Assembly: GCF_013694095.1 (NCBI RefSeq)
Contig: NZ_JACEFB010000006.1
Coordinates: forward strand, 124,001-188,000
Reading direction: 5' to 3'
Length of the DNA stretch: 64,000 nt
DNA from: Thermogemmata fonticola
Lineage (GTDB): Bacteria; Planctomycetota; Planctomycetia; Gemmatales; Gemmataceae
Shown: positions 13,433 to 29,405 of the stretch, piece after piece
Layout: the number at the start of each line of letters is the position of its first letter
Numbering within the stretch: the first letter of the stretch is position 1
The notes under the pieces: generated by a model
Seen by the model: only the letters and a program-made list of their open reading frames with translations
What the model was told of the DNA's origin: nothing
Databases searched by the model: none
Made by a program: the position numbers and the translations under genes

Positions 13433-14309
13433 GAGCGCCTAATAAAACCTCTCTTGGCAAGGCATAACGGGAGCCAAGGAGGGGATGCACCACGACCACA
13501 GAGATTGTCTCGGAGGAACTATGGGCGGTGATCCAGCCGCTTCTTCCGCCTCGCAAGCCCAACCCAAGGAGAGGGCGACCGCCTCTCCCAGACCGGCAGG
13601 TGCTGACAGGCATCTTGTTCGTGCTGATGACCGGCCTTCCCTGGAAGAAGCTGCCCAAGGAGATGGCCTGAGACGGCGGCATGACCTGTTGGCGAAGACT
13701 CCGAGGCTGGCAACAGGTCGGGGTCTGGAAGCGTCTCCACCAGGCACTGCTGGACCGTCTGGGCGAGGCGGACAAGATAGACTGGTCGCGGGCGTCGTTG
13801 GACTCCGCTACGGCGCCTGCCTCCAAGGGGGCGAAGCGGCCGGGCCGAATCTGACGGATTGCGGCCGAACGGGCACGAAGCGTCATCCGGTGGTCGATGC
13901 GGACGGCATCCCGTTGGCCGTGACTGTCTGGGCGGCCCACGTCCATGACAGTCAGAGGATGGAAGAGACCCTCGAGGCCGTTGAGCCGATCCGATCCGGC
14001 GGCGTGGAGGGCGCCCCCGCAAGCGGTCTGAGAAGCTGCACGCGGCTAATACCTAGGATTTGGTGGGAGAAGCGCTGGGCTTTGCGGAAGCGGGGGATTC
14101 AGCCGAGGATGGCGCGACGGGGAATCGAAAGCCGGTGAAGACTGGGGCGTTCCCGGTGGGTGGCGGAGCGGACGCATTCCTGGTTGAACCGGTTGTGACG
14201 TCTGAGGATTCGCTTTGAGCTTCGGTCGGATATTCCTCTGGCATTCCTTGGCCTCGGTTGTGCCTTGATTTGCTGGAAGTTCATCCAAACCTGGTTTTGT
14301 TAGGCGCTC
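13433..14309 (+). mobile_element. Decayed IS5-family insertion sequence with both terminal inverted repeats
   Basis: An 877-bp element bounded by imperfect terminal inverted repeats. The left end is 13433-13457 and the right end 14285-14309, both reading GAGCGCCTAAyAAAACC inward. They agree at 20 of 25 positions and at 16 of the first 17. The interior is one transposase gene on the + strand, broken by stops and frameshifts. The size fits the IS5 family (IS427/IS1031-like), which typically makes very short target duplications. TTA lies outside the right end and TTC outside the left, so a 3-bp duplication with one later change is possible but not shown. Confidence 0.8.
13486..14303 (+). pseudogene. 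IS5-family DDE transposase pseudogene
   Basis: Reading across three frames gives a near full-length transposase. It runs from EELWAVIQPLLPPRKPN and GILFVLMTGLPWKKLPKEM, through MTCWRRLRGWQQVGVWKRLHQ and DWSRASLDSATAP (first Asp region). KRHPVVDADGIPLAVT (second Asp region) and RPRKRSEKLHA follow. Then come LRKRGIQPRMARRGIE, WVAERTHSWLN (catalytic Glu region) and the terminal CALICWKF. In-frame TGA stops occur at 13669, 13852, 14136 and 14196. Frame changes are needed near 13810-13860, 14000-14015 and 14045-14085. The original start codon is also lost. All catalytic segments are recognisable, but no functional protein can be made. Confidence 0.82.
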
Positions 14310-15305
14310 TTATTTTTGTATGGCAGGTGAGAGAGGGACACCGCCGAGGGGCAGCAGGGATGTTCCGTTTCCTGTTTCTGGAGAGGATGACGGCGGTTGG
14401 ACCGACGCCGGGTCAGAGTGCAGATGCCCGGCAGGTAAGACAGCCGGTGCGGAGCTGGATGGTTTTGGAAGGGAATAGGCGACCTCTAATTCAGTCAGAA
14501 ACTGTCGGGCTTGTTCACAATTCGGGTCCGATTGTAAGGCTAGGTGAAGCTGTTGCCGGCTGGCCTCCACATATCCCATATGTTCTAGCACGCGGGCCAA
14601 GTGATAACGGGCCAAGCTCTCTGGCATGATTTCTCGGAAGGTTGCTAAGGCTTCGTCATAACGTCCGGCGCGAGCTAGGCAGAAGCCTTTAGTCTTACGA
14701 ATGTTCCGGCTTTCGGGATCCCCGCGTAAAGCTTCGTCGCACCACCGCACTGCCCCTTCCCAGTCTTTCCATTGGGCGTGAACCAAAGCGATTTGGTAAC
14801 GGGCTTGGATGTCCTGGGGATAGTATTGCAAGTAGCGGTGATACACATCCAAGGCCTTCTGCCGTTCTCCCAAGCGGGCATGATATTGAGCTAGCCCCAG
14901 TAGTGCTGTGGGGTTTTTGGGGTCTTGTTGCAGGGCTTTTTGGAATCCTTGACGGGCTTGGTCCAAAAGCAATTCCCGGCTGGCTGGGGCGGTTTCCTCT
15001 GCGAAAGCGGCGTCTAGTTGGACCTGGGCCAGAATCGCGATAGTTTCAGGTTTCGGCGGTCCTTGCGAGGAGTTACTACTGGTGAGGTGCGGTAACTGCA
15101 CCGAGACCTGCGGTGACTGCCCCCACAAGGAGCGCAGACCTCCGCGGGAGGTTGTCGCGGAGTGAAATGCAGGGGTTTGCAAGGCGACGTCAAGTGGGGG
15201 TTGGACAGGGGAATGATTGCAGCCGATCAGGATGAGACAAAGGAAGCAGCCCCACCCCCCCTTCCTGCCCTCTCTGCGGCGCCATCCCTGGCCTTCCATG
15301 TCCAT
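14310..15305 (-). CDS. TPR lipoprotein, TadD-like
   Basis: The likely start is the ATG at 15305 (331 aa; an ATG two codons later is equally possible). An Arg/Lys-rich start leads into FLCLILIGC, a lipobox with C29 as the lipidated residue. A Ser/Pro linker follows. Then comes a run of tetratricopeptide repeats (about 88-285), for example ALLGLAQYHARLGERQKAL, and a Pro/Ser-rich tail. In Tad loci the TPR lipoprotein TadD acts as pilotin for the secretin, and this gene closes the Tad cluster on the same strand, 54 bases after the AAA+ gene. The stop codon TAA (14310-14312) touches the right end of the insertion sequence, so the native C-terminus may have been altered by that insertion. The TadD role is inferred from context and architecture. 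Confidence 0.75.
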   Translation of the reverse strand: MDMEGQGWRRREGRKGGWGCFLCLILIGCNHSPVQPPLDVALQTPAFHSATTSRGGLRSLWGQSPQVSVQLPHLTSSNSSQGPPKPETIAILAQVQLDAAFAEETAPASRELLLDQARQGFQKALQQDPKNPTALLGLAQYHARLGERQKALDVYHRYLQYYPQDIQARYQIALVHAQWKDWEGAVRWCDEALRGDPESRNIRKTKGFCLARAGRYDEALATFREIMPESLARYHLARVLEHMGYVEASRQQLHLALQSDPNCEQARQFLTELEVAYSLPKPSSSAPAVLPAGHLHSDPASVQPPSSSPETGNGTSLLPLGGVPLSPAIQK

Positions 15306-15359
15306 CCTCGGTATTCCATGAGTTCGGGGCGGCAGCTTAGTGATTAGGCCGGACAATCC

Positions 15360-16706
15360 TTATTGAAACTCGGCGATGAAGCTAGCGGCGGCCTCGGCGA
15401 TAAGGTCTCGCGTCAAATGCACTGGCTGCCGTCTATATCGACAAATCGACTGGACAATTTCCAGCAAATCACGGCAATCGCTCGCCCGCGGAGCACGACC
15501 ACGGTTGTAATACCGCTCATATAAGTAATCGACCGCTGACGGATCATAATTCATTCCCAGACGGCGGCAGTGATACTGGAAGATACGCTCGTAAACATCA
15601 CGGGGCGGTGCAGTAACACCCACCTTGTGGCGAATACGGCGGAGAAAGGCATCGTCCACCAGTTGCTTCGGGTCCAAGTTAGTACTGAAAATGATCAATT
15701 GCTCGAAGGGAACCTGGAACTTTTTACCACTGGCGACGGTCAGGAAATCGTGACGATCTTCCAGAGGCAGAATCCAGCGATTGAGCAGTTCGCGGGGACT
15801 GCATTGCTGCCGCCCGAAGTCGTCAATCAGGAAGACCCCGCCATTGGCCTTGAAGTGGATAGGGGCCTGGTAGAAGTTGGAGTCGGAGAAGTAGCGCAAG
15901 TCCAGCATCGAGAGGGTCAATTCACCCCCCGTAACGATAACAGGGCGGCGGATGCGGACCCAGCGCCGGTCATACGAACCGGTGGTCAAAAGCCTCCTTA
16001 CAGCAGCATCCGTGTCTTCTTCTCCATCTGTGGCAGTGTCATCGACGACGTGCAGAGACGGATCGAACACTGTGATGATGTTTTCGTCGGCTAGGAACGC
16101 ATAAGGAACATAGATCGATCCCCCGACATTATTCATGAATTCTCCAATCGCCCGTGCGATGGCCGTCTTACCATTGCCGGGAGGACCATAGATGAATACG
16201 GAGCGGCCACTGACGATCGCCGGTCCTATGGCATTGAACATCTCTTCCTTGAGCACCAGATGGCTGAAGGGAGCCTTCAATGCTTCCGGGTAACAATTCA
16301 AACCCACCACGGTTTGGCGGTAGCATTGCTCCACGTAATCCTCTAGAGGAACAGGTGCCGGACCGATATAGGCACAAAACTCCATAGCCTCTTGCGCCCG
16401 TTTGCGACCAAGGTCGGTCAGGCTAAACCGATAGCTCACCTCGCCGACCAGATCGCCACCGTCCACCTGCAAAGCCTTCTCGTCTTTGAGGAACTTGAGA
16501 CTGTCACGGATCACTTTGAAAGGCAAGCAGAGGAATTGGGCCAAGTCTCGCCCTAACATGGCTCCGCGGGTGTAAATTGTCCGCAGAATCATGTCGCATA
16601 AGAATCCTTGGCTGAGGCCGGATTCACGGAGTGTCTCGGGTGCTGTCGGCGCTTCCGGCGTCGGATTCATTTCCCATTCGGATGCTGAATGATGCGATAA
16701 GGCCAT
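15360..16706 (-). CDS. AAA+ ATPase with N-terminal winged-helix-like region, in the Tad pilus locus
   Basis: The ATG at 16706 follows GGGAGGGAATCGAAC and gives 448 aa. Residues 30-115 look like a winged helix (GAMLGRDLAQFLCLPFKVIRDSLKFL and a wing around YRFSLTDLGRKRA). The AAA+ module has Walker A GPPGNGKT (174-181) and Walker B VFLIDD (291-296, with Asp in place of the usual Glu). It also has sensor 1 in IFSTNLDP and a candidate arginine finger in RRIRH (356-360). The spacing between Walker A and B is long (about 110 residues) and includes an acidic insert (TDGEEDTD). No transmembrane segment is seen. It lies between the pilus platform genes and the TadD-like gene, all on one strand, which suggests a role in assembly or control of the pilus. 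Its true function is unknown to me. Confidence 0.8.
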   Translation of the reverse strand: MALSHHSASEWEMNPTPEAPTAPETLRESGLSQGFLCDMILRTIYTRGAMLGRDLAQFLCLPFKVIRDSLKFLKDEKALQVDGGDLVGEVSYRFSLTDLGRKRAQEAMEFCAYIGPAPVPLEDYVEQCYRQTVVGLNCYPEALKAPFSHLVLKEEMFNAIGPAIVSGRSVFIYGPPGNGKTAIARAIGEFMNNVGGSIYVPYAFLADENIITVFDPSLHVVDDTATDGEEDTDAAVRRLLTTGSYDRRWVRIRRPVIVTGGELTLSMLDLRYFSDSNFYQAPIHFKANGGVFLIDDFGRQQCSPRELLNRWILPLEDRHDFLTVASGKKFQVPFEQLIIFSTNLDPKQLVDDAFLRRIRHKVGVTAPPRDVYERIFQYHCRRLGMNYDPSAVDYLYERYYNRGRAPRASDCRDLLEIVQSICRYRRQPVHLTRDLIAEAAASFIAEFQ

Positions 16707-16903
16707 GTTCGATTCCCTCCCCTGGACGGACCATGTTCGCCAAGACCACCGTTCGCCCCGTTCCCCCTTCACCATCTAACAGTTCGTTCGTGGAACGAGC
16801 CTATTCCCTCGGGTGGTGGTGCATTAACCCCGTGGATCGAAGTCAATCCCGCATGCCGTTGGACGATATGCCAGCACGCCCGTCCGTGGATGTGCTTTGC
16901 GTC

Positions 16904-17152
16904 CTAACCCTTGTTTCCCTTGACACGGGTAATGATGAAGAGGGCTATAGCTCCGGCAATGAGTACGGTCATAATCACGCCATCTTGCCGTCGGAATATC
17001 CCCTCCCAATAGTCCTGAAACTCCTGCCAATAGCCGCTAGCCCAGAGGTTGGCTGATCCTGCGTAACAGGGAGATGCACTCAGCAGCATCCCTAAGGCAG
17101 CGATGGCGAAAACAAAACCGGCCGTGCGAGTTCTACTACCCAGGCATCTCAT
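16904..17152 (-). CDS. Small membrane protein of the Tad locus, function unknown
   Basis: The ATG at 17152 is preceded by GAGGATGCT and gives 82 aa; longer in-frame starts lack ribosome-binding sites. The N-terminus is basic and then hydrophobic (TAGFVFAIAALGMLLSASPCYAG), which is a signal peptide probably cut after AYAG/CYAG. A short polar part follows with an aromatic cluster (WASGYWQEFQDYWEGIF). A C-terminal transmembrane helix (GVIMTVLIAGAIALFIITRV) ends in KGNKG. I do not recognise the family. The layout resembles small pilus-associated membrane proteins, but it has no prepilin cleavage motif. Confidence 0.65.
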   Translation of the reverse strand: MRCLGSRTRTAGFVFAIAALGMLLSASPCYAGSANLWASGYWQEFQDYWEGIFRRQDGVIMTVLIAGAIALFIITRVKGNKG

Positions 17153-17456
17153 AGCATCCTCAGTCCGAATTGTGGAACTTTTCGGAATCGCAGGGGCTGT
17201 GGCAGTGTAAATCGGAACTTGAAAGTGGCTCATGCCCCTGGGCCAGGAATTCGACAACTCCTGTTTCAAGCATAGAATGCGGCTGCGTCGTTTGCGTTAG
17301 CATGGCCGGGGATAAGGAGGACAAAGGCGGCAGATGATGGTGCCAGGTCCAAGAATTGAGAAAATGCAAATAATCCCTGAGCGGGGCAAGGTTTTACCGC
17401 TCAGGGGCTTAACAGTGCTGTAGACAGAGCTTGAATGATCAATGGGAAAGCGGGGA
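17153..17456. other. Intergenic region within the Tad locus
   Basis: About 300 bases between the small membrane protein and the OmpA-like lipoprotein gene. No supported gene, promoter or clear terminator was seen. Confidence 0.3.
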
Positions 17457-18113
17457 CTAGCGTCCCATGCTACCTGTGGTTCCGCCCGCGGTGCCGGGAG
17501 TGGCTCCCCCAGTAGATGTTCCACCGGTAGTGGGACCAGCACCACCGCCGCCCAAACCTCCGCCGATGCCGCCTTGGTAACCTGTGGCACTGTCTGCGAA
17601 GGCTCGAGCGCCGAAGCGGGCTGGCATGCCAGGCGGTGGAGCATCGTGGACGTACACTTCAATCTCGACATTCGGTCCTAATTGGGTAGTCATGTATTTA
17701 CGGATGGTCGCAGCCCGGCGGGCATTCAGATCGTCGCGTAGGGCGCTGAGCTTGTCCAGGTTTTCCGGAGTGGGGGCAATATCTCGCGCCGTTTGCAGGT
17801 AGATACGAGTCGGTGGTTGAGGAGTAGCCCGAGCCAGACTGTTAAGTTTTTCAATTCCTGCTCCGTTGAGGCGATCAGTTCCCGTCTCGAAGTGCCAATT
17901 CCATACCGTATGGTTCAGGAACTGACCGTTGAGGGCCTGCTGGGCAAACGGAGCTAATACAGCTTGGCGAGCGGCATAGTTGTAACGTTGCGGCCAGGCT
18001 GGATCGACCCAGTTCCGATAGTGGTCTCCCAGGGTACTCTGGCTATGCACGCAACCAAGGGGTGCAACACTGAGAAGCACCCCCGCCCACAGTATGGAAC
18101 AACAACGTGACAT
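17457..18113 (-). CDS. OmpA-like lipoprotein of the Tad locus
   Basis: The ATG at 18113 follows GGAGGAGAAAGTG and gives 218 aa. The start (SRCCSILWAGVLLSVAPLGC) is a lipoprotein signal with lipobox PLGC. A middle region (about 60-160) has the beta-alpha pattern of OmpA C-terminal peptidoglycan-associated domains: a strand near RIYLQTARD, then a helix LDKLSALRDDLNARRAATIRKYM, then a strand VEIEVYVHD. The last 40 residues are Gly/Thr-rich low complexity. Many Tad loci carry an OmpA-family or CpaD-like lipoprotein that ties the machine to the outer membrane or peptidoglycan, and this may be its counterpart. The domain call is by pattern only. Confidence 0.65.
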   Translation of the reverse strand: MSRCCSILWAGVLLSVAPLGCVHSQSTLGDHYRNWVDPAWPQRYNYAARQAVLAPFAQQALNGQFLNHTVWNWHFETGTDRLNGAGIEKLNSLARATPQPPTRIYLQTARDIAPTPENLDKLSALRDDLNARRAATIRKYMTTQLGPNVEIEVYVHDAPPPGMPARFGARAFADSATGYQGGIGGGLGGGGAGPTTGGTSTGGATPGTAGGTTGSMGR

Positions 18114-18278
18114 CACTTTCTCCTCCATGAGTTTCACGGCAGAACTGCGAACAGTTCGGCCGGTAGCTTCCTTGGCACATCCGGTCGCCTTCCCCTCCGA
18201 TCACTCGCGCAGGGCTGAGTGGACGGCGCCCTTTTCTCACATCTGTCAAGTCACATCGATTTGACTTATCGATACTGT

Positions 18279-19241
18279 TCATCCTCCCTTGCTTAGCAGT
18301 CCCTTTTGAATTTGAATGGCCGCTGGACCCACCAGGACGACGAAAATGGCCGGGAAGATGAAGAGCACCAATGGGAAAATCAGTTGCACGGCAGTCTTGG
18401 CGGCTTTTTCCTCAGCCAATTGACGCCGGCGCGTCCGCATCGAGTCGGATTGGACGCGCAGAGCGTGGGCGATGCTGGAACCGAAACGGTCCGCCTGGAT
18501 CAGGATGGCTGCCAAAGCGCGGACATCATCTACCCCAGTACGAACTCCCAAGTCGTGCAGCACTTCCCGCCGCGGCCGCCCCATTTGCAACTGCATATTG
18601 GCCAAGGAAAACTCCTCGCAGATAACCTTAGCGTGGTTCTTCATTTCCTCGGTTACCTTGCGCATCGCAGCATCCAATCCTAAGCCGGATTCTACGCACA
18701 CCACCAAAAGGTCCAGAGCATCTGGCAGGGTCAGGAAAATTTCCTTCTGCCGGCTGGTACGCAAATACCATAATGCTACTTGGGGCAAATAAAAACCGAT
18801 ACCTCCGAGGATCACTACCCATTGAATCGACCGAAGAGTAAAGCCATCTTTGAGCAAGAAGAAGAAAATGGCGGGAATGAGGAAGAGGACTAGGCAAAGA
18901 AGGCGGATGCCCTGGTAGATCGCCACGGCGCTGTCACTGCGGAAACCAGCATTAGCCAGTTTCACACGCAGCGAGTTCTTCTCCATTTCATTGCCGCTAT
19001 CCATTGCTCCGCCCAACTGCCCGATGAGTTCTTTGAGACCGGCGAAACGCTGCTGGGATTTGTGGGCTTCGACTTCCAGTTCGACCAATGATTTGGGACG
19101 CCCGATGCGTTCCAGCCGCTCCTCCGCTAAGCTGTTCCGTTGGGAGATGGTGGAAAGCAGCCAGAATACGCCGGCCACGATGGCACCAAAAACTAGTACC
19201 GGCAATAACTCTTCGGCGGACAAGAAAGCGAAAAGTTCCAC
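18279..19241 (-). CDS. tadC: Tad pilus inner-membrane platform protein TadC
   Basis: A type II secretion F-domain membrane protein, the second platform component that works with TadB and the TadA motor. I choose the GTG at 19241, preceded by GGGGG, giving 320 aa; a TTG nine codons upstream is an alternative. A transmembrane helix lies near the N-terminus (LLPVLVFGAIVAGVFWLL). Two helices lie mid-protein (LLCLVLFLIPAIFFFLL and WVVILGGIGFYLPQVALWYL) and one at the end (LIFPLVLFIFPAIFVVLVG). The T2SSF domain contains DALDLLVVCVESGLGLDAAM. It follows tadB in the same order as in most tad operons. Confidence 0.88.
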   Translation of the reverse strand: MELFAFLSAEELLPVLVFGAIVAGVFWLLSTISQRNSLAEERLERIGRPKSLVELEVEAHKSQQRFAGLKELIGQLGGAMDSGNEMEKNSLRVKLANAGFRSDSAVAIYQGIRLLCLVLFLIPAIFFFLLKDGFTLRSIQWVVILGGIGFYLPQVALWYLRTSRQKEIFLTLPDALDLLVVCVESGLGLDAAMRKVTEEMKNHAKVICEEFSLANMQLQMGRPRREVLHDLGVRTGVDDVRALAAILIQADRFGSSIAHALRVQSDSMRTRRRQLAEEKAAKTAVQLIFPLVLFIFPAIFVVLVGPAAIQIQKGLLSKGG

Positions 19242-19431
19242 GGTAGCTACCCCCCTGATGTCAAACAACGGTTGATGGCCTGGATTTTCCTTCCTTGAGT
19301 CCTTGGTATTTCCGTGAACTTGGAGCTGTTAGCTCTGCAGTTCGGAAACCTGTCGGTTCCATTTCCGAAGCGGAGTGTTTGCACAGACCGTTCGGTGCCC
19401 CTTCCACGGAGCCTCCATTCCGGAGCAAAGT

Positions 19432-20400
19432 CTACACCTTGATATCCACAATCTTCTTGATGGCGTAAGAGCCAATGATCACCAATACGATGGCACCCAC
19501 AGACATGCGGATGCCCATGGGGTCAGTCCAGAGCAGCCGGATGTAGTCAGGTTTCATCCACAGCATCAGGAAAAATAGGCCAATTGGCATGGCGATCAGG
19601 ACGATACCTGAAAGCCGCCCTTCGGCGGTAAGTGCCTTGACCTGACCGAGGATTTTGAAGCGTTCGCGAATGACATGTCCGATACGGTCTAGGATTTCGG
19701 CCAGATCACCGCCAGTTTGCCTTTGAATCGCGACACTGGTCACGAAGAAGCGCAAGTCCAAATTGGGCACGCGGTCGCAGAGATTCTTCAAGGCTTCTTC
19801 CAAGGGGATGCCGAGGTTTTGCTCCTCGTAAACGCGGGCGAATTCTTTGGCGATAGGATCAGGCATCTCCTCGGCGACGACATGCAAACCAGCGGCCAGG
19901 GAGTGACCGGCACGCAAGGCCCGTGCCACCAATTCCATAGCATCGGGAAGCTGAGCTGCAAAGTTCTTCAACCGTGTTGCCCGTTTGTTGTAAAGCCAGA
20001 TCCACGGCAGGCTGAAAAAGATCAGCACCACCACAGGCAAGACGTAGATGTTGATGAGCCACAAACTCAGCGCTGCTCCCACGAGACTTAAGAGGATAGA
20101 GATGCCGAAGAGTACACTGGGTTTGATGTTGCAGTCGGCTTGCTCAAACAGGCGGGTCAGATTCAGGAAGGAAGGTGTTAGGCGATCCAAAAGGTTTTGT
20201 TTGTCGGCCTCCATAAGGGCCTGCTTGAGCAGGATGTCTGCGGAGGAGTCATGGCGGCGGCTCCGGCCGACCAGTGCATCCAAGCGGCGGTCCCCTTTCC
20301 CTTGGCTACCGGATTGAAAGGCAAGGAAAAGGGCTGTGATGGCACCGACGACTAGCAATCCTACAAGCAACGGTAGAAGCAGTTCATTCATGGTGGACAT
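19432..20400 (-). CDS. tadB: Tad pilus inner-membrane platform protein TadB
   Basis: A polytopic T2SSF-domain protein that forms the assembly platform in the inner membrane with TadC. The ATG at 20400 (or that at 20391) gives about 322 aa. It begins with a transmembrane segment (LLPLLVGLLVVGAITALFL). The T2SSF core carries PDAMELVARALRAGHSLAAGLHVVAEEMPDP, the usual TadB signature, and two helices precede it around FGISILLSLVGAALSLWLI. The end is hydrophobic (ISVGAIVLVIIGSYAIKKIVDIKV region). It lies 110 bases after tadA, followed by tadC. Confidence 0.9.
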   Translation of the reverse strand: MSTMNELLLPLLVGLLVVGAITALFLAFQSGSQGKGDRRLDALVGRSRRHDSSADILLKQALMEADKQNLLDRLTPSFLNLTRLFEQADCNIKPSVLFGISILLSLVGAALSLWLINIYVLPVVVLIFFSLPWIWLYNKRATRLKNFAAQLPDAMELVARALRAGHSLAAGLHVVAEEMPDPIAKEFARVYEEQNLGIPLEEALKNLCDRVPNLDLRFFVTSVAIQRQTGGDLAEILDRIGHVIRERFKILGQVKALTAEGRLSGIVLIAMPIGLFFLMLWMKPDYIRLLWTDPMGIRMSVGAIVLVIIGSYAIKKIVDIKV

Positions 20401-20510
20401 CCCGTTTGAGGGGCGACGGTGATTCGCAAACTCTGTCTGGTTTCCCCCGTATGGTGACCCCCTTCCTGCTGTTATTGGCGGTGAGGATGGGGGGCCTAGC
20501 ATTCCGAATT

Positions 20511-21896
20511 TCAGTCCTTGAGCAATATCCGTTCGGCAAACAAGTTGGCCGGTAGTTTGATCCCTTTGGCTTCCAAGCGGTTGATGAAGGTCGGGCGTAC
20601 ACCGGTGGCTTCGAATTGTCCATAAGCCCGGCCGTTCTGGTCCACGCCCAACTGGCGGTAGCGGAAGATTTCCTGCATGGTAATGATATCTTGTTCCATA
20701 TTGAGAACTTCCGTGATGCTGGTGATTTTGCGGGGTCCTCCTTGGAGGCGGTTCGCCTGAATGATCAGATCGATGGCGGAGCTGATCTGCTGCCGCATCG
20801 CTTTGACCGGCAGCTCGAAGCCACCCATCATAATCATGGTTTCCAAGCGGCTCAGGGCTTCGCGCGGGCTATTGGCGTGCAGCGTGGCCATCGAACCGCC
20901 GTGGCCGGTGTTCATGGCTTGCAGCATGTCGAGGGCTTCCGCGCCACGCACTTCGCCAATGATGATCCGTTCTGGGCGCATGCGGAGAGCATTGCGAACA
21001 CAATCACGAGTGGTGATCGCCCCTTTCCCCTCGATGTTGGGAGGTCGAGTTTCCAAGCGCACGACGTGTTCCTGCTGGAGTTGCAATTCGCAGGCATCTT
21101 CGATGGTGATCACCCGCTCATCGTTGGGTATAAAACTGGAGAGGGTGTTGAGAAGCGTGGTCTTCCCGCAACCGGTACCGCCACTGATAAGGACATTGAG
21201 GCGAGCTTTAATGCACGCTTCCATGAGCATGGCCATTTCCGGAGTGAAGGCCTTGTAGTTGAGCAGGTCTTCCAGCTTGAGAGGATTGGTGCCGAAGCGC
21301 CGGATACTCAAGCAGGGGCCATCGACAGCAATCGGCGGAATGACGGCGTTGACGCGGGAACCGTCAGGCAGGCGGGCATCTACCATAGGGCTGGTTTCAT
21401 CCACGCGCCGACCGACCTTGGACACGATTCGATCGATAATCTGAAGCAGGTGATCATTGTCGCGGAATTTGACGTCAGTCTTTTCCAACTTGCCGCGGCG
21501 CTCAACATACACCTGGTATGGGCCATTGACGAGGATATCGCTGATTGTTGGGTCTTTCAGAAGAACTTCGAGGGGGCCGAAGCCCAGCGTTTCATCCAAA
21601 ATCTCTTCGATCAGCTTTTCCCGTTCGAGCCGGTTGAGCAGGGGGTTTTCGGTGTCGCAGAGGTGCTCGACGACCCGGCGGATATCGCGACGTAGGGCAT
21701 CACTGGCCAGATCACGCACGCGGGTAAAGTCTAGTCTTTCGACCAGTTTGGCGTGAATCTGTCGCTTGAGTTCTTCGTAATTGCGGCCATTTCCGGTGCT
21801 GCCACCCATGCTAGGGCTGGACAAGCGGGAGATGCTGCTCCCGTAGTTGCTCATCTGATTGAGCTTGGAAATACCCTGCTGGAGTCGGCTGTTCAT
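20511..21896 (-). CDS. tadA: Tad pilus assembly ATPase TadA (CpaF)
   Basis: A hexameric secretion-type ATPase that powers Flp pilus assembly at the cytoplasmic face. The 461-aa protein has the N-terminal domain typical of CpaF ([20 protein letters not shown], about 106-125). Walker A is GGTGCGKT (239-246). The Asp box/Walker B is [20 protein letters not shown], followed by the His-box [14 protein letters not shown]. The start at 21896 is preceded by AGGAGGAGATGACCG. It sits between cpaE and tadB as in classic tad loci. Confidence 0.95.
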
Positions 21897-22059: not shown

Positions 22060-23283
22060 TCAGGCATGCTTACTTCCCTCGCGGCCAAACAAGTTCCAAA
22101 AACTCCTACTGCTACGGGAATCTTGCGTAGTCGGTTTACCAATCAGTGTTTGCACCAGATTGTGAAGGCTCCGTTGAATGTTGCTTTTCGGGGCATAGCG
22201 GAGAAGGGGCTGGCCGGCGATGCGTGCTCCGAGCACTGCTTTAGGATCATCTGGAATCTGCCAGAAGATCGGCTTGCCGATGACCTCTTCTGCTTTTTTG
22301 AGACTGATCCCTTCTTCGATGGTTTCTGCACCATAACGATTGATAACCACACGGGTTTTGTCCGCAATGGCAGGCTCGTGATTGAGGAAATGTAAGATTC
22401 GCACCACGTTGCGCAGACTGCCCAAGGTCAGTTGAGCCACCAACAGTATTACGTCGGCTTGCCGGAGAGCTGCCCGATCCGTAGGGAGCAAGGTTTTGCT
22501 TAAATCTAGCACCAAGTAGCTGTAATTCATTCGAAGGAGGTTGAGGATACGTTCGACGTGTTGCTCGTGAACATCAGTGTATTCGATGATTTCCAAGGGA
22601 TGGCGTAGAATGGCCAAGTTGGAGCTATCGTAGGGGGCCATAGCCCGCTTAAGGAAGTTCAGGTCCAGCCGCTCGAAGTTCCGGGATAGATCGGCGATGC
22701 TGATGTTGTCGTTGGCCTGGAATTCTAAGACAACGTCCGCATCTCCAAGAACTAAGTCCAAGTCGATGAGAGCAGCAGTCTGAGATGGTTCGGCGGCTAG
22801 GGTGGCAGCGATGTTGACGGCCAGAGTGGTACAGCCGACGCCGCCGCGTGAGCCGAGAATGGCGAGAACGCCCCCGCCGCCGCTTCGATAGCCGTACGCA
22901 CTGCCCCCGCTGACTTCATCCCCGATTTGCCCGCAGGCTTTGCGCAACGCGGTCAGCAGGTTTTCCAGAGCGATGGGTTGGGTCAGGAAGTAGCGTGCGC
23001 CGCGCTGAAGCGATTCCAGCAAGGCTCCATGATCCCGGCTGACCGTGATGATCGGCAGGTGCGGATACTCCGCCGCCAACTGAGCAATCATCTGTAATGC
23101 GCGGTCCTTATCCGCATCCAGGGAGATCACCACTAGATCGGGGACCGACTCGGCCACGACATCGAAGAAATACTCATAGCGCGAGCAAATCGCATCGAGG
23201 AAGATAAAGTCAATTCCCATGAGCAGGGTACGCAGAGACTCACGGGTGGATTCGTTCGGGTCGACAATAGCGACACGTTGCAT
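22060..23283 (-). CDS. cpaE: Tad pilus localisation ATPase CpaE/TadZ
   Basis: A MinD/ParA-type ATPase with an N-terminal receiver-like domain; in other bacteria CpaE/TadZ directs the pilus machine to the cell pole. The 407-aa product has a receiver-like half (1-120, VAIVDPNESTRESLRTLLMG, with Asp in VVISLDAD). The ATPase half carries a degenerate deviant Walker A, SRGGVGCTT (145-153), in which both usual lysines are missing, as is frequent in this family. The next motif, AALIDLDLVLGDADVVL, is intact. The start at 23283 follows AAGGAACTGGGATT. It lies between the secretin and tadA. Confidence 0.9.
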   Translation of the reverse strand: MQRVAIVDPNESTRESLRTLLMGIDFIFLDAICSRYEYFFDVVAESVPDLVVISLDADKDRALQMIAQLAAEYPHLPIITVSRDHGALLESLQRGARYFLTQPIALENLLTALRKACGQIGDEVSGGSAYGYRSGGGGVLAILGSRGGVGCTTLAVNIAATLAAEPSQTAALIDLDLVLGDADVVLEFQANDNISIADLSRNFERLDLNFLKRAMAPYDSSNLAILRHPLEIIEYTDVHEQHVERILNLLRMNYSYLVLDLSKTLLPTDRAALRQADVILLVAQLTLGSLRNVVRILHFLNHEPAIADKTRVVINRYGAETIEEGISLKKAEEVIGKPIFWQIPDDPKAVLGARIAGQPLLRYAPKSNIQRSLHNLVQTLIGKPTTQDSRSSRSFWNLFGREGSKHA

Positions 23284-23398: not shown

Positions 23399-25204
23399 TC
23401 ATTGCCGGCGCATTTCAGGGATTTCCATTTTCGGCGGCATCCCCGAAACGCTGGTGGGCACAGGATCCTGGGAAGTACTCCCTTGGAATTGGGGTGATGT
23501 TCCCCCTCCTGCTTCCTGCGAGAGATTAGGGTTGGCAGAGGAACCAAGGGGTGTTCCCGTGGTGCTAGGCGGTGTCAAGGGGGGTAATGGAGCGGGAGCC
23601 GGGGTAGCAACTTTGCCCGTACCGTTATGGCTGGGTTGTCCTGTCCCCATGGCACCACCTTGTCCGGTACACACATCGCCGACGCAAGGGAAGATGGCCG
23701 CTGTTGGATCGCACTTGTAGGGCGCGTTGTAGCAGCGTCCATTCCACACCTTGCGTTGGCCGCGGGGTGCTTCCAGGATGTTCTCCAAGAATAGCTCATA
23801 ATCATCCGGCTCGCGGGTCTCTCGACCTGGTACACGTTGAGGAACCTGATCGCAATTGAGCGGTCCTACCAGCCGAGGTGTGACCAGAATGATCAATTCC
23901 TGTTCGCGAATTTCGTGACGTAGCCGGCTGAAACCCACGCCGATAAACGGCAGATCACCCAGAACAGGGATTTTGGAATTGTTGGCTTCGATGCTGTTCT
24001 GGATCAGCCCGCCGATAGCATAGGTCTGCCCGGATTCTAGCATCACGGCGGTGCGTACCGACTGCTCGGTGAAACCGGGAGTGGCCTGGCCATTGATGAT
24101 GATCCCCAAGCCGAAGTTGACGGCGGAGATGCGCGGTTGAATCTCCAACCAGATCATGCCGTTGCCATAGACGATGGGCAGAACCTCAAGTTCCGTACCG
24201 AAGGGTTGCAATTGGGCACCGGGCCCGACTAGCCCTGCCTGCGGACTGACAATCGCCTGCTGTCCTCCCGCTCGGAAGAAGGCCGGACGCCCACTCTGGG
24301 TAACCACACGCGGCTCAGCAATGAACTTGGCCACCCCTTCATTGCGCAGAGCTTGCAAACCGGCAATGAAACTGGCGGGTGTGATCCCCAATTGCAAGTT
24401 AGCATTGGGACTGACACCTCGTATCCGGCCTGGAATGTTTTGCTGCTGCTGTTGCTGGACGCCGATTAAGCCGCTGACTAGGCTGCTGATCTGTACGGTA
24501 GTGCCGCTCACTGCGAAGTCGAAGCCTCGCTGGCGTAACAGATTGCGGTCTACTGAGGCGACCACAACATCGATTTGGACCTGCTGGCCGCCGCCGATTT
24601 GCATGGCATTGATGATATTGGGTTGTCCCCCCGCAGCTTGGCCTGGGACCTGTCCCGCGGCATTGGCCGCCAGTTGCAGGATAATCTCGGCGTCTTGCGG
24701 ACTGGTCACATAGCCGCTGAGAATGATCGTATTCCCTAAACCAGGAGTCACCTCGACATTGGCAGTCGGGACAGTTCGACGGATCAAGCTTCGCAAGAGT
24801 GCCAAGTCGGGTTGCACTACGACGTCGTAGACGATCGGCGGTCGTTCCTTGAAGACGAGGGTGAGCTGGACCTGACCGGTGGTCCGTCCAGTCAAGAGCA
24901 ATTCGCGAGGATCGGTAGCGCTGACGCGAACCTGGAGAATATCTTCCCGGCTGACGACCACGTCGCTGAACGCGTCTTTGCCGGTATCTGGTTTGAAAGA
25001 GACAACACCACCCAAGGGGACAATAACGGCACCGGTTTTGGGGTCCACTTGGGCAGCCGGCGGTTTAGGGACAGCGGGTGGTTGAGCCGCCGGTGCAGGT
25101 TGGGGCGCGGGAGCAGGGGGTTGCTGGGCCTGCAGGGCCGTCATCCACAGGCCCAGAGCCAGCGTCAATCCCCCAAGGCTTTTCTGGTATAGTTTCGGGT
25201 GCAT
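23399..25204 (-). CDS. cpaC: Tad pilus outer-membrane secretin CpaC/RcpA
   Basis: It forms the outer-membrane channel for the Flp pilus. The ATG at 25204, preceded by GGAGGAGAGGTGAGG, gives 601 aa with a signal peptide (GGLTLALGLWMTALQAQQ) and an Ala/Pro/Gln-rich linker. The N-terminal pilus domain spans about 45-130. A BON-like section follows (NTIILSGYVTSPQDAEIILQ). The secretin core runs from VAKFIAEPRVVTQSGRPAFF to IPVLGDLPFIGVGFSRLR and ELIILVTPRLV. After the core comes an unusual tail of about 135 residues with four Cys (CYNAPYKCDPTAAIFPCVGDVC) and then Pro/Thr-rich low complexity. Longer than most CpaC proteins because of that tail. Confidence 0.92.
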   Translation of the reverse strand: MHPKLYQKSLGGLTLALGLWMTALQAQQPPAPAPQPAPAAQPPAVPKPPAAQVDPKTGAVIVPLGGVVSFKPDTGKDAFSDVVVSREDILQVRVSATDPRELLLTGRTTGQVQLTLVFKERPPIVYDVVVQPDLALLRSLIRRTVPTANVEVTPGLGNTIILSGYVTSPQDAEIILQLAANAAGQVPGQAAGGQPNIINAMQIGGGQQVQIDVVVASVDRNLLRQRGFDFAVSGTTVQISSLVSGLIGVQQQQQQNIPGRIRGVSPNANLQLGITPASFIAGLQALRNEGVAKFIAEPRVVTQSGRPAFFRAGGQQAIVSPQAGLVGPGAQLQPFGTELEVLPIVYGNGMIWLEIQPRISAVNFGLGIIINGQATPGFTEQSVRTAVMLESGQTYAIGGLIQNSIEANNSKIPVLGDLPFIGVGFSRLRHEIREQELIILVTPRLVGPLNCDQVPQRVPGRETREPDDYELFLENILEAPRGQRKVWNGRCYNAPYKCDPTAAIFPCVGDVCTGQGGAMGTGQPSHNGTGKVATPAPAPLPPLTPPSTTGTPLGSSANPNLSQEAGGGTSPQFQGSTSQDPVPTSVSGMPPKMEIPEMRRQ

Positions 25205-25486
25205 CCTCTCACCTCTCCTCCCTTTTGGACAAGGGCGGACCTTAGTTTTCCGCCCGATACACTCGATCACCCATCACGTTCATGCCGTTGGGGACTGGAG
25301 AGAAAACCGATGAGTGAGCTTGGAAGGGCGTGTTACAGAGTCGTCCCTCATGGTTTCTCACCAATACCCCAGACCCAGGCTTGTCACAACCTCCTGGAGC
25401 AATCCGCATCGAGCCACCTTCGGTTCAAAACACTTGACTTTGGGGCGAATGTCTGCGACAGGATTGCTCACCCGCCAGCGCAAGGC

Positions 25487-26815
25487 TTACTCCACTTTCG
25501 ATCCTCCGGCCTTATCGTCGGGTTTAGGTTGAGTGTTAGGAGACGAGCCTTCCTTGGGCTGTTCGTGTGTGTCCCCAGCCGAGGACGGATTATTTTGCTC
25601 CGGGGTCACTTTTTCTTTGAGTCGCCATTCACCAGGCCGGACCTCCTCGTAGCGGTAAATCTCAGTGCGGTTGGCCGTGTGGACAGCAATTTCGCGGATA
25701 GGCCGGCGTGGCGGAGCCGCGGGTTGTTTGGGTTCGGGCTGGGTTGAGGGTGGTTTTGTTGGCCCGGCCACCTCGGTTTTGGGGGGTTGGAATTCATCGC
25801 GTGGTGCGGGCTTGGGCGGGGGAGGACCAAGCATTCCCTCTGCGAGCCACTGGTTCCGCGTGACCATTGTTTTCAGGGCGAGTTGGCCGATAGCGGCGGA
25901 CGGATCGCTGATGGCCCCGGAGGCAAACTCCTTGGGTATTTCCTTTTCGATGAATTTCTCTTTGAGCAACTCTTTGGTAAGCAAGGTCCCTGCTGGTATT
26001 TCGTCGGTCGCGACCCACACCTTGACCGTTTCCACGGGAGGCGATGATGCCGGGGGAGTGGGAGCACTGCTATCGCCGCTGGAAGATGGCTCTTCGACAC
26101 GGCTGGGTAGGATCAACGCCCGCAACCGCTTCTTAACCTGTTCCAGATCGTATGCCTCCTCCTCTTTTTTGTTTGGATTGCGCAGGAGGAGCGAGAGATG
26201 ACAGCCCGCATGCTCCGCCATCTTGAGAATGAGGGCTTGCTCTTGAGTTACGGCGAAGGAAACGGAACTGACATTGGTGAAAGCTCCGCCTCCTTTATTC
26301 GGGGTGGATTCGTAGGAGGCGTGAGTGTCAACGGCTAGCACCAACATATCGACCAGTAATGGGAAAGCTTCCAGCCGGTTCCCCTGGCGATAAGTGGCGA
26401 GTACGTCGACCCGCGTACCCGGCCCGACGAAGCCGGCAACCGCTGCCGTCGTGTTGACCGGCAGTGTGACCATGTCCATGCCGTCCGGCAGGGTAATGAC
26501 ACTACCCTTTGTCAAAGCGTTGCTGGTGATAAACTCGCCAGCTTGGATCGAGCGAGTCAGACGGCGATCCAGCAAATCCTCCTCTTTCAACACAACTGTG
26601 GGGGGTAAAGCATCCTTGGGAACAGCCTTTTTGGCAACCAGGTTCTTTTGCAATTCTTCCTTGCTCAGCACAGTGCCCACAGGCAGATTTTTGGCTGCTA
26701 CATAGACTTCGATCTGCTCGATCTTCGGTTTGGCGCTAATGCGGGTGGTCAGGAAAGCGGCGCCCAAACCGCATCCCACCGCGACGACCATAAGAAGTAA
26801 GTTGCGTTGTGCCAT
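25487..26815 (-). CDS. cpaB: Flp pilus assembly protein CpaB/RcpC with two SAF-like segments
   Basis: A periplasmic partner of the secretin. The 442-aa protein starts with a signal anchor (LLLMVVAVGCGLGAAFLTT). SAF-like segment 1 is at about 33-95 (VYVAAKNLPVGTVLSKEEL...RRLTRSIQAGEFI). The RcpC region follows (about 105-225, VTLPVNTTAAVAGFVGPGTRVDVLATY). A second segment at about 258-320 (VKVWVATDEIPAGTLLTKELL) repeats the SAF pattern. The last 110 residues are Pro/Lys/Glu-rich with one small folded-looking stretch (IREIAVHTANRTEIYRYEEVRPGEW). Usual CpaB proteins are 250-300 aa, so the duplication and tail are notable. It lies 282 bases before the secretin gene. Confidence 0.88.
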   Translation of the reverse strand: MAQRNLLLMVVAVGCGLGAAFLTTRISAKPKIEQIEVYVAAKNLPVGTVLSKEELQKNLVAKKAVPKDALPPTVVLKEEDLLDRRLTRSIQAGEFITSNALTKGSVITLPDGMDMVTLPVNTTAAVAGFVGPGTRVDVLATYRQGNRLEAFPLLVDMLVLAVDTHASYESTPNKGGGAFTNVSSVSFAVTQEQALILKMAEHAGCHLSLLLRNPNKKEEEAYDLEQVKKRLRALILPSRVEEPSSSGDSSAPTPPASSPPVETVKVWVATDEIPAGTLLTKELLKEKFIEKEIPKEFASGAISDPSAAIGQLALKTMVTRNQWLAEGMLGPPPPKPAPRDEFQPPKTEVAGPTKPPSTQPEPKQPAAPPRRPIREIAVHTANRTEIYRYEEVRPGEWRLKEKVTPEQNNPSSAGDTHEQPKEGSSPNTQPKPDDKAGGSKVE

Positions 26816-27330: not shown

Positions 27331-28131
27331 TCAGTTTCTTAAGGCGACTAGCACCACCCACAGATAAAAAAGGAAGCCGACACAGAGCGGTATTCCATAG
27401 GGCAAGCGAACCCAGCGGCTTCGTCGCTGCTCAGCCTGGATAGTGGCCTGATGCAATTGCCCTTGGGTTACCAACAACAGGTCCTGAGCCATAGCTTGGA
27501 ACATCTGGGCATTGTCGCGGAAGCGCCGTCGCAGAAGGATCATGGCCAAGCCGAATAGGCCACCGAAAAGTGCTCCGCAGGTAAAAGCCCAGAAGACGAC
27601 TCCCAGAGCGTGCAAACGGATGTCCATACCGGCGGCTAAGGTTGTATCGCCTGTGCCAAAGTACGCCCCCATCCACGCGGCAAATCCCATCTGCATCTTG
27701 ACATCCCCTTCGCCTACCCCGCGAAGAACCAACATGGGCAGCAGCAAACCGAAACCGAACAAGGTTGCCAGCAAGCTGATGCCAAGCCCGCCTGTGCCCG
27801 AATCAATGGACCAGCCGAGAGTATGGCACAGACCAGCCAGCCATCCGCTGAGGATGAGGGGAAGGGTCAGCCAGTTCGGAACCTTGAAAGCCCAACCGTC
27901 GATAATCGCAGCCAGAATCATCCCGAAACTGACCACGAGTAGAGGTCCAGCATTGAGTCCCACGGGACAGTACCATTGCCACATGTGGTGGGCCAAAACC
28001 GATGCCAGGAGCCAGAGCAAGGCCCATAGCGGTACCCTCGACAGTTGGCGTCCTAGTTCCCGATCCCACCCCGGCTCCGTTTGGGCGACTGCCACGGCGC
28101 TGCTGAGCGGGGACGTCGTTGGCATGCTCAT
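27331..28131 (-). CDS. cpaA: Prepilin peptidase CpaA/TadV (A24 family)
   Basis: An inner-membrane aspartic protease that cleaves the Flp prepilins before assembly. The 266-aa protein has the two catalytic aspartates of the A24 family: D78 in IIDGWAFKVPN and D143 in GVGEGDVKMQMG (GxGD motif). It has about six hydrophobic helices and lacks the N-terminal Cys-containing methylase domain of PilD-type enzymes, as is typical for TadV. The start at 28131 follows GGAGGTAATCCATCA. It lies 393 bases downstream of the second pilin gene, beyond a strong terminator. Confidence 0.9.
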   Translation of the reverse strand: MSMPTTSPLSSAVAVAQTEPGWDRELGRQLSRVPLWALLWLLASVLAHHMWQWYCPVGLNAGPLLVVSFGMILAAIIDGWAFKVPNWLTLPLILSGWLAGLCHTLGWSIDSGTGGLGISLLATLFGFGLLLPMLVLRGVGEGDVKMQMGFAAWMGAYFGTGDTTLAAGMDIRLHALGVVFWAFTCGALFGGLFGLAMILLRRRFRDNAQMFQAMAQDLLLVTQGQLHQATIQAEQRRSRWVRLPYGIPLCVGFLFYLWVVLVALRN

Positions 28132-28524: not shown

Positions 28525-28710
28525 TCAGTTCGTCTTGGGTGCGATGTTGGAACCGACGAAGCTGAAGGTGTCGTTGGCGTTCTGGCCGAGAGTGGTAATG
28601 GCCGCAATGCAGACGACGATAATCAGGGCCAGCATCACGGCATACTCGACGGCGGTGGGGCCATCTTCCTTCTTGAGGAACGACACGACGCTGTGGAACA
28701 GGCTGCGCAT
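28525..28710 (-). CDS. flp: Flp-type prepilin (second copy)
   Basis: Major or minor subunit of the Tad pilus. The ATG at 28710 is preceded by AAAGGAGTTGTTGCC; the longer frame to 28758 has no such site. The 61-aa product has a short leader, the cleavage site DG/PTAVEYAVMLALI (Glu at +5 and Tyr at +6, as in Flp pilins), a hydrophobic helix and a short polar end (NDTFSFVGSNIAPKTN). The core around the cleavage site is identical to that of the neighbouring pilin. It is followed by a strong terminator. Confidence 0.92.
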   Translation of the reverse strand: MRSLFHSVVSFLKKEDGPTAVEYAVMLALIIVVCIAAITTLGQNANDTFSFVGSNIAPKTN

Positions 28711-28811
28711 GGCAACAACTCCTTTAGGTACAGACGGACCGTTGAAACAATCGCTCACAGTACCGTCCTGCGAGCGTACAATCCGCCGACACGCGTCAGC
28801 GGGTGGGCGCT

Positions 28812-29003
28812 CTAAGGCACCTTGACCTTGACTCCTTGGAGGGACAGGTCGTTGTACATGTCACTGGTGTAACCGCCGATTTGGGTGACAGCGGCGAAGA
28901 CCGCCATCAGGATCAAAGCAAGCATAACGGCGTACTCCACGGCGGTGGGACCATCCTCGCTGTGCAAGAAGGCGTACGCTCTTTGGACAATCCGGCCGAG
29001 CAT
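28812..29003 (-). CDS. flp: Flp-type prepilin (first copy)
   Basis: The first gene of the Tad locus. The ATG at 29003 is preceded by GCGGGAGCCAGCC and gives 63 aa. It has the same processing and helix motif as the second copy (DG/PTAVEYAVMLAL) but a different mature end (GGYTSDMYNDLSLQGVKVKVP). It lies 101 bases before the second pilin and about 130 bases downstream of a candidate promoter. Two similar pilins might be a major/minor pair or alternative subunits. Confidence 0.92.
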   Translation of the reverse strand: MLGRIVQRAYAFLHSEDGPTAVEYAVMLALILMAVFAAVTQIGGYTSDMYNDLSLQGVKVKVP

Positions 29004-29405
29004 GGCTGGCTCCCGCATAGTCGGGCGTGGGTCGGGGCAGGGGTATTTCCGCGTCGTTCACTGCCCGGTGGAGCATCAATCACCCGTCGGCTTCCGTTTG
29101 CTCTGCTGGGTGATGGACTCCACTCTCTCATCCCCACACCAACCCTAGTGCGTCTTGCCAAGCTGTCAAACGGCAAGAAGGTAAAAAAATGCCGGTTCTT
29201 CCGAGATATCTGACAGTTTGCGATCCCAGACACGATCCGAGAAAGAGTCTATGCGCCCATCGAAATCCCACCTTCTCCTGAGGCGGCCAAGTACAGCGGT
29301 TACTGCAGGAGATTCGGACACTCTGCCGGTATCTGAACGGGGAATTGCGCTGCTGGAGGGTAGAACAGCTCTTTGCGACGTGTGGTCAGGCGCTTCGGAA
29401 GCCGA
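29004..29405. other. Upstream region of the Tad locus
   Basis: About 400 bases between the first pilin gene and the kinase gene. It contains the candidate pilin promoter (29142-29169) and a short perfect palindrome CAGATATCTG near 29205. No gene is supported. Confidence 0.4.
29142..29169 (-). promoter_or_regulatory. Candidate promoter of the Flp pilin genes
   Basis: On the minus strand a perfect TTGACA (29169-29164) is followed after 16 bases by TAGGGT (29147-29142). The start point would lie near 29135, leaving a leader of about 130 bases before the first pilin. The -35 is perfect and the -10 weak, which suggests a regulated promoter. Confidence 0.42.

Follow-up and report, generated by a model that had tools for sequence, protein, structure and literature searches.

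The locus raised the question of what a soluble AAA+ ATPase with a DNA-binding-type domain contributes to an operon for Tad/Flp (type IVc) pili. The gene encodes a protein of 448 amino acids and occupies exactly positions 15360..16706 on the reverse strand of the window, by which is meant the whole 64,000-nucleotide stretch of Thermogemmata fonticola DNA that was analysed. The start codon, ATG at 16706, is preceded by a GGAGGG-like ribosome-binding stretch; the frame stays open up to an ATG at 16775, and the alignment of orthologues begins at 16706. The first-pass annotation had placed this gene in a pilus locus and had offered three roles for its product, a regulator, a remodelling ATPase for pilus parts or a second motor.

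The pilus locus was borne out as a complete Tad operon, running from about 29018 down to 14310, in which the ATPase gene is penultimate (all operon features lie on the reverse strand). The operon opens with two Flp pilins (28812..29018 and 28525..28758), both with the motif GPTAVEYA in their translations, and a CpaA/TadV-like prepilin peptidase (27331..28131), which was assigned by sequence and position and for which frames at the equivalent position in other tad loci gave matches. These are followed by RcpC/CpaB (25487..26815, PF16976), the RcpA/CpaC secretin (23399..25270, PF00263), CpaE/TadZ with a receiver domain (22060..23283, PF00072 and MinD-type matches), the CpaF/TadA motor ATPase (20511..21896, PF00437, 4.9e-67) and the platform proteins TadB (19432..20502) and TadC (18279..19268), both matching PF00482. 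An OmpA-like protein (17457..18137, weak PF00691), recurrent upstream of the ATPase gene, precedes a small protein of 121 amino acids (16904..17269) with a hydrophobic segment at its C-terminus and no family match, which recurs in many Gemmataceae loci. Only 3 bases separate the ATPase gene from the last frame, a TadD-like TPR lipoprotein (14310..15356) recognised by its Pfam TPR match and lipobox LIGC, the start codon of which is uncertain. A transposase-like frame, resembling the IS5 type on reading only, lies immediately beyond the TPR gene, where the operon ends (window 13485-14138 on the forward strand). The host genome also carries a second, distinct Tad locus (L148, G000:C10:122000-141000) with a CpaF 56% identical and no gene for a winged-helix AAA+ protein.

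Upstream of the first pilin gene lies a sigma-70-like promoter, TTTGACA-N15-CTAGGGTT (29141..29170, reverse strand). The exact pattern is also present upstream of the first pilin in four relatives (L153, L154, L156 and L160), giving with the window the consensus TTTGACW-N15/16-CTASGGTT, and imperfect look-alikes were seen in two more. It is rare genome-wide, and the backward controls yielded 0 copies. Two further exact copies in the genome, at C2:260504 and C9:65952, may mark co-regulated genes. No shared operator-like inverted repeat was obvious upstream of eight tad operons when these were compared by eye, without statistics, and sigma-54-like sites are few and scattered in the window, with none in the 350 bases ahead of the first pilin gene.

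The full-length protein was modelled with AlphaFold2 at a mean pLDDT of 89.7 and a pTM of 0.85, from an alignment of 55 sequences that left out those derived from plasmids. In the model a linker joins an N-terminal winged helix to a complete AAA+ module with its lid at residues 148-446, an assignment that fold comparison supports. Walker A, GPPGNGKT (residues 174-181, 16164..16187), and Walker B, VFLIDD (residues 291-296, 15819..15836), are conserved in 59 homologues. D295 and D296 are invariant among these, Walker B thereby ending in DD in place of the usual DE, as are the arginine-finger candidates R356 and R357 (15636..15641), while sensor 1 (N343) and sensor 2 (R412) are conserved in at least 90%. 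Walker A and B, sensor 1, arginine finger and helical lid are thus all present in these sequences and in the fold. Residues 213-247 (15966..16070) form an acidic, partly disordered insert, with a median net charge of -5 among orthologues and with low pLDDT around residues 221-240. The protein lacks a membrane segment, the highest Kyte-Doolittle mean over any 19-residue window being 1.04. The AAA+ motor, the acidic insert and the lack of a membrane segment described in the first-pass annotation were therefore all confirmed. Judged from these residues the protein would hydrolyse ATP, and it is probably hexameric. No Pfam or NCBIfam model scored above its cut-off, and a sequence search of solved structures returned generic P-loop matches only.

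The DNA-binding-like N-terminus that had also been noted proved to be a MarR-like winged helix at residues 26-112 (16371..16631), and no other fold was indicated. Modelled alone the domain reached a pLDDT of 89.2, its highest Z against MarR-family regulators was 12.2, with about 80 residues aligned (Foldseek E 3e-4), and the predicted structure has the H1-H2-H3-strand-wing-strand-H4 topology of this fold; homologues gave weak Pfam matches to TrmB, MarR, GntR and PadR. MarR-type winged helices usually bind DNA. Unlike them, the domain is fused to an AAA+ module, and its wing is acidic or neutral in all clades (median net charge -2 to 0), while the median charge of the recognition helix goes from +2 in the Gemmatales-type orthologues (A1) to -1 in those of Planctomycetaceae (A2). 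The conserved basic recognition helix and wing of DNA-binding MarR regulators were not found in this comparison across clades, which tests charge and not binding. The charges appear unlike those of a conserved DNA-reading surface and lean against DNA, suggestively only.

The closest structural match to the ATPase was an uncharacterised Pyrococcus furiosus protein, Q8U0N8 (entry 8p49; Z 17.4, rmsd 2.9 over 254 residues, 15% identity), for which no literature was found under either accession. The match spans the linker, AAA+ and lid, with the winged helix outside it. Lon, MCM, ComM, PspF, CbbQ, RuvB and NorQ followed at Z 13.7-15. A common fold is no proof of function, and matches of a predicted model cannot tell remodelling of a pilus machine from gene regulation. 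MoxR-type ATPases (RavA, CbbQ, NorQ) have a comparable AAA+ core (CbbQ Z 14.3, NorQ Z 13.8) and may act alike, as remodellers; the protein gives a weak bpMoxR match and differs from them by its N-terminal winged helix. Membership was not supported by the family models, as bpMoxR scored 20.8 bits against a cut-off of 27 over 44 residues around the P-loop and AAA_3 was not among the matches. No vWA match was found in a scan of nine neighbours, all of them in the window. The sigma-54 activators (PspF, NtrC1, FleQ, FlrC) have a similar AAA+ fold, at Z about 14, and carry a DNA-binding-type domain in the same chain, but they differ in the GAFTGA loop, which is missing here, in the N-terminal position of our winged helix and in the sigma-70-type tad promoter. 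Membership of this class was not supported either: Sigma54_activat reached 16.7 bits against a cut-off of 20.2, in the P-loop part only, and a GAFTGA-like string occurs in no collected member of the family. PilT/VirB11-like ATPases such as CpaF are likewise ATPases of tad operons without a membrane segment, but they form another ATPase family, and the protein gave no PF00437 match at E 0.1.

By its nearest relatives the host is a planctomycete of Gemmataceae type, and homologues were found in 55 of 59 sampled relatives of the same class. The phylum-wide sample beyond that class yielded one full-length match (G136), the others being weak and mostly confined to the P-loop. No phage homologue was found, and 75 plasmid records, all proteobacterial, contained one; the distribution beyond Planctomycetota is based on plasmid records only. 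A tree built by a quick method with SH-aLRT support separated an orthologous clade A (support 100) from a paralogous group B and the proteobacterial members, and relations among these three are unsure, the deeper joins being weak and some terminal branches long. Upstream DNA of 2.5 kb or more was available for 35 A1 loci, of which 33 contained a core tad gene and 31 three or more, while the TPR gene adjoins the ATPase gene in 40/42 orthologous loci. Zavarzinella (L035) has its ATPase-TPR pair oriented divergently to the tad operon. Across 37 Gemmataceae genomes, a clade A orthologue and a CpaF of the window type (CpaF-1) occurred together in 32, neither in five and one alone in none (Fisher p 2e-6, which overstates independence, the genomes being related). 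In G001, of the same genus as the host, the sole Tad type is the other one and the sole homologue is a B paralogue. A contig titled Bacteroidales (L044) bears a Gemmataceae-type tad operon with the ATPase gene and is probably mis-binned or a contaminant.

Full-length proteobacterial homologues, 33-40% identical, lay inside tad clusters in all ten loci examined, from nine organisms of the Alpha-, Beta- and Gammaproteobacteria. The position of the gene varied: it is downstream of TadC in the rhizobia (Rhizobium etli, Sinorhizobium chiapasense, S. fredii) and Pseudorhodobacter turbinis, and convergent with TadC in Salipiger sp. In Burkholderia pyrrocinia, B. stagnalis, two Paraburkholderia terrae plasmids and Photobacterium sp. 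it is flanked by CpaA and CpaB. The homologue in R. etli CFN42 is RHE_RS25680, and S. fredii NGR234 has one as well. The gene sits inside a full Tad operon in the window and is found again in the Tad loci of other phyla. The first-pass annotation would have been damaged by homologues that were MoxR-type or generic and unlinked to pili; the orthologues are linked to tad at the frequencies given, and the MoxR models remained below cut-off. Alphaproteobacterial tad clusters bearing the AAA+ gene also contain an L,D-transpeptidase gene between CpaE and CpaF (annotated in L110 and L134, by similarity in L113).

The linkage breaks in several places. In Planctomycetaceae (L115, L117, L121) the A2 orthologue keeps its TPR neighbour, the tad genes being not adjacent but elsewhere in the genome. 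A Pirellulales-like genome (G047, L141) has a collinear CpaA-CpaB-secretin-CpaE-CpaF-TadB-TadC-OmpA-TPR operon without the ATPase gene; because of this operon and the second locus of the host, the ATPase is regarded as an accessory part and not as core. The clade B paralogues, about 41% identical, are mostly not linked to tad; among the loci examined the exception is L118, with CpaF and TadB at a distance of about 4-5 kb. In Pirellulales-type genomes (L047:5823-13602, L050, L051, L131 and partly L133) clade B members belong to a conserved group of neighbours that also includes REC-GGDEF-CBS, FHA-EAL and a Ser/Thr-kinase-like gene, the last assigned by reading its sequence and not by family search, and with no tad genes. 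By its gene content this cluster appears to be a c-di-GMP and kinase signalling module, a tie that is compatible with a remodeller or controller and equally with a regulator.

These data point to a family that probably serves Tad pili as an accessory part or controller not described before. Our preferred reading, to which we give a rough probability of 0.45, is that the protein is an accessory factor which uses ATP to remodel or control one type of Tad pilus machine. The main task of the winged helix would be to dock onto a cytosolic partner, with CpaE/TadZ, CpaF or the TadB/TadC platform as candidates, and ATP hydrolysis by the ring would alter the assembly or activity of the docked partner. 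The reading is favoured because of the tad linkage in orthologous and proteobacterial loci in three arrangements, the exact co-occurrence with CpaF-1 in Gemmataceae, the complete AAA+ signature and fold, a gene that abuts and travels with that of the TadD-like lipoprotein, and the charges of wing and helix together with the sigma-70-like tad promoter. Counted against it are the DNA habit of MarR-type domains, the two Tad loci without the gene and the Planctomycetaceae orthologue that stands apart from tad.

Ranked second, as a tentative alternative that is nonetheless quite possible, is an ATP-dependent regulator of tad-operon transcription, in which the winged helix would sit on DNA and the AAA+ ring would set the oligomeric state or act on RNA polymerase in a manner unlike that of sigma-54 activators. 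The confident MarR-like fold and the weak TrmB, MarR, GntR and PadR matches of homologues speak for it, as do the signalling genes beside the Pirellulales paralogues, which suggest a family wired to signalling, and an accessory gene within an otherwise collinear operon would suit a regulator. These points are set against an acidic or neutral wing, a helix charge that is not conserved, the lack of a GAFTGA loop in any member, a sigma-70-like promoter with no shared operator-like repeat visible by eye and a gene position near the end of the operon, almost touching the TPR gene. Sequence evidence cannot separate the regulator from the remodeller, and both of these first-pass options stand.

That a general-purpose ATPase merely hitch-hikes in tad loci would agree with the mostly unlinked B clade and with the Planctomycetaceae orthologues, but it is quite unlikely given the independent placement in tad clusters of Planctomycetota and of Alpha-, Beta- and Gammaproteobacteria with differing gene orders, and its occurrence with one Tad type without exception in the Gemmataceae sample. 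The third first-pass option, a second pilus motor beside CpaF for retraction or extension, is suggested by the location in the operon but is very improbable, the protein having no T2SSE/PilT-VirB11 signature (4.9e-67 for CpaF) and its best structural matches among AAA+ ATPases of other kinds, and CpaF alone doing both jobs in Caulobacter according to the accessible part of PMC12019362.

The view that such a protein is not described for standard Tad systems agreed with the component lists and open literature, as far as these sources were accessible. The Tad model of Denise et al. 2019 (PMC6668835) comprises key components and the accessories tadD, rcpB and rcpC, and a winged-helix AAA+ protein is not mentioned in the accessible portions of that paper or of the CpaF structure study (PMC12019362). 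The sections available of a rhizobial Tad survey (PMC10934763) treat the S. fredii Locus 3 genes on the same plasmid, pNGR234b, and do not discuss the homologue gene. The Myxococcus Kil system, in the partial description at hand, has a CpaF-type ATPase (KilF) and a cytoplasmic multidomain protein (KilD), with no equivalent of the winged-helix AAA+ protein mentioned. No description of the family was found in the open literature, most subscription papers and all preprints being outside this coverage; the claim of novelty is limited accordingly, as absence from the open literature is not proof.

There is as yet no explanation of how one Tad motor alternates between extending and retracting the pilus, and an unknown regulatory element is mentioned as a possible cause of directional switching in the accessible part of PMC12019362. 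In a more specific form, which we consider unlikely as it stands, the ATPase would be a switch dedicated to some Tad pili, the ring reading a cytosolic signal through the winged helix, possibly c-di-GMP or phosphorylation as the neighbours of the paralogues suggest, and flipping the CpaF-TadB-TadC motor from extension to retraction and back. As surface fibres Tad pili are widespread, and an AAA+ family that recurs in their operons in planctomycetes, rhizobia, Burkholderia relatives and Photobacterium, and to which no family model is assigned, offers a concrete candidate for a missing control or assembly factor.
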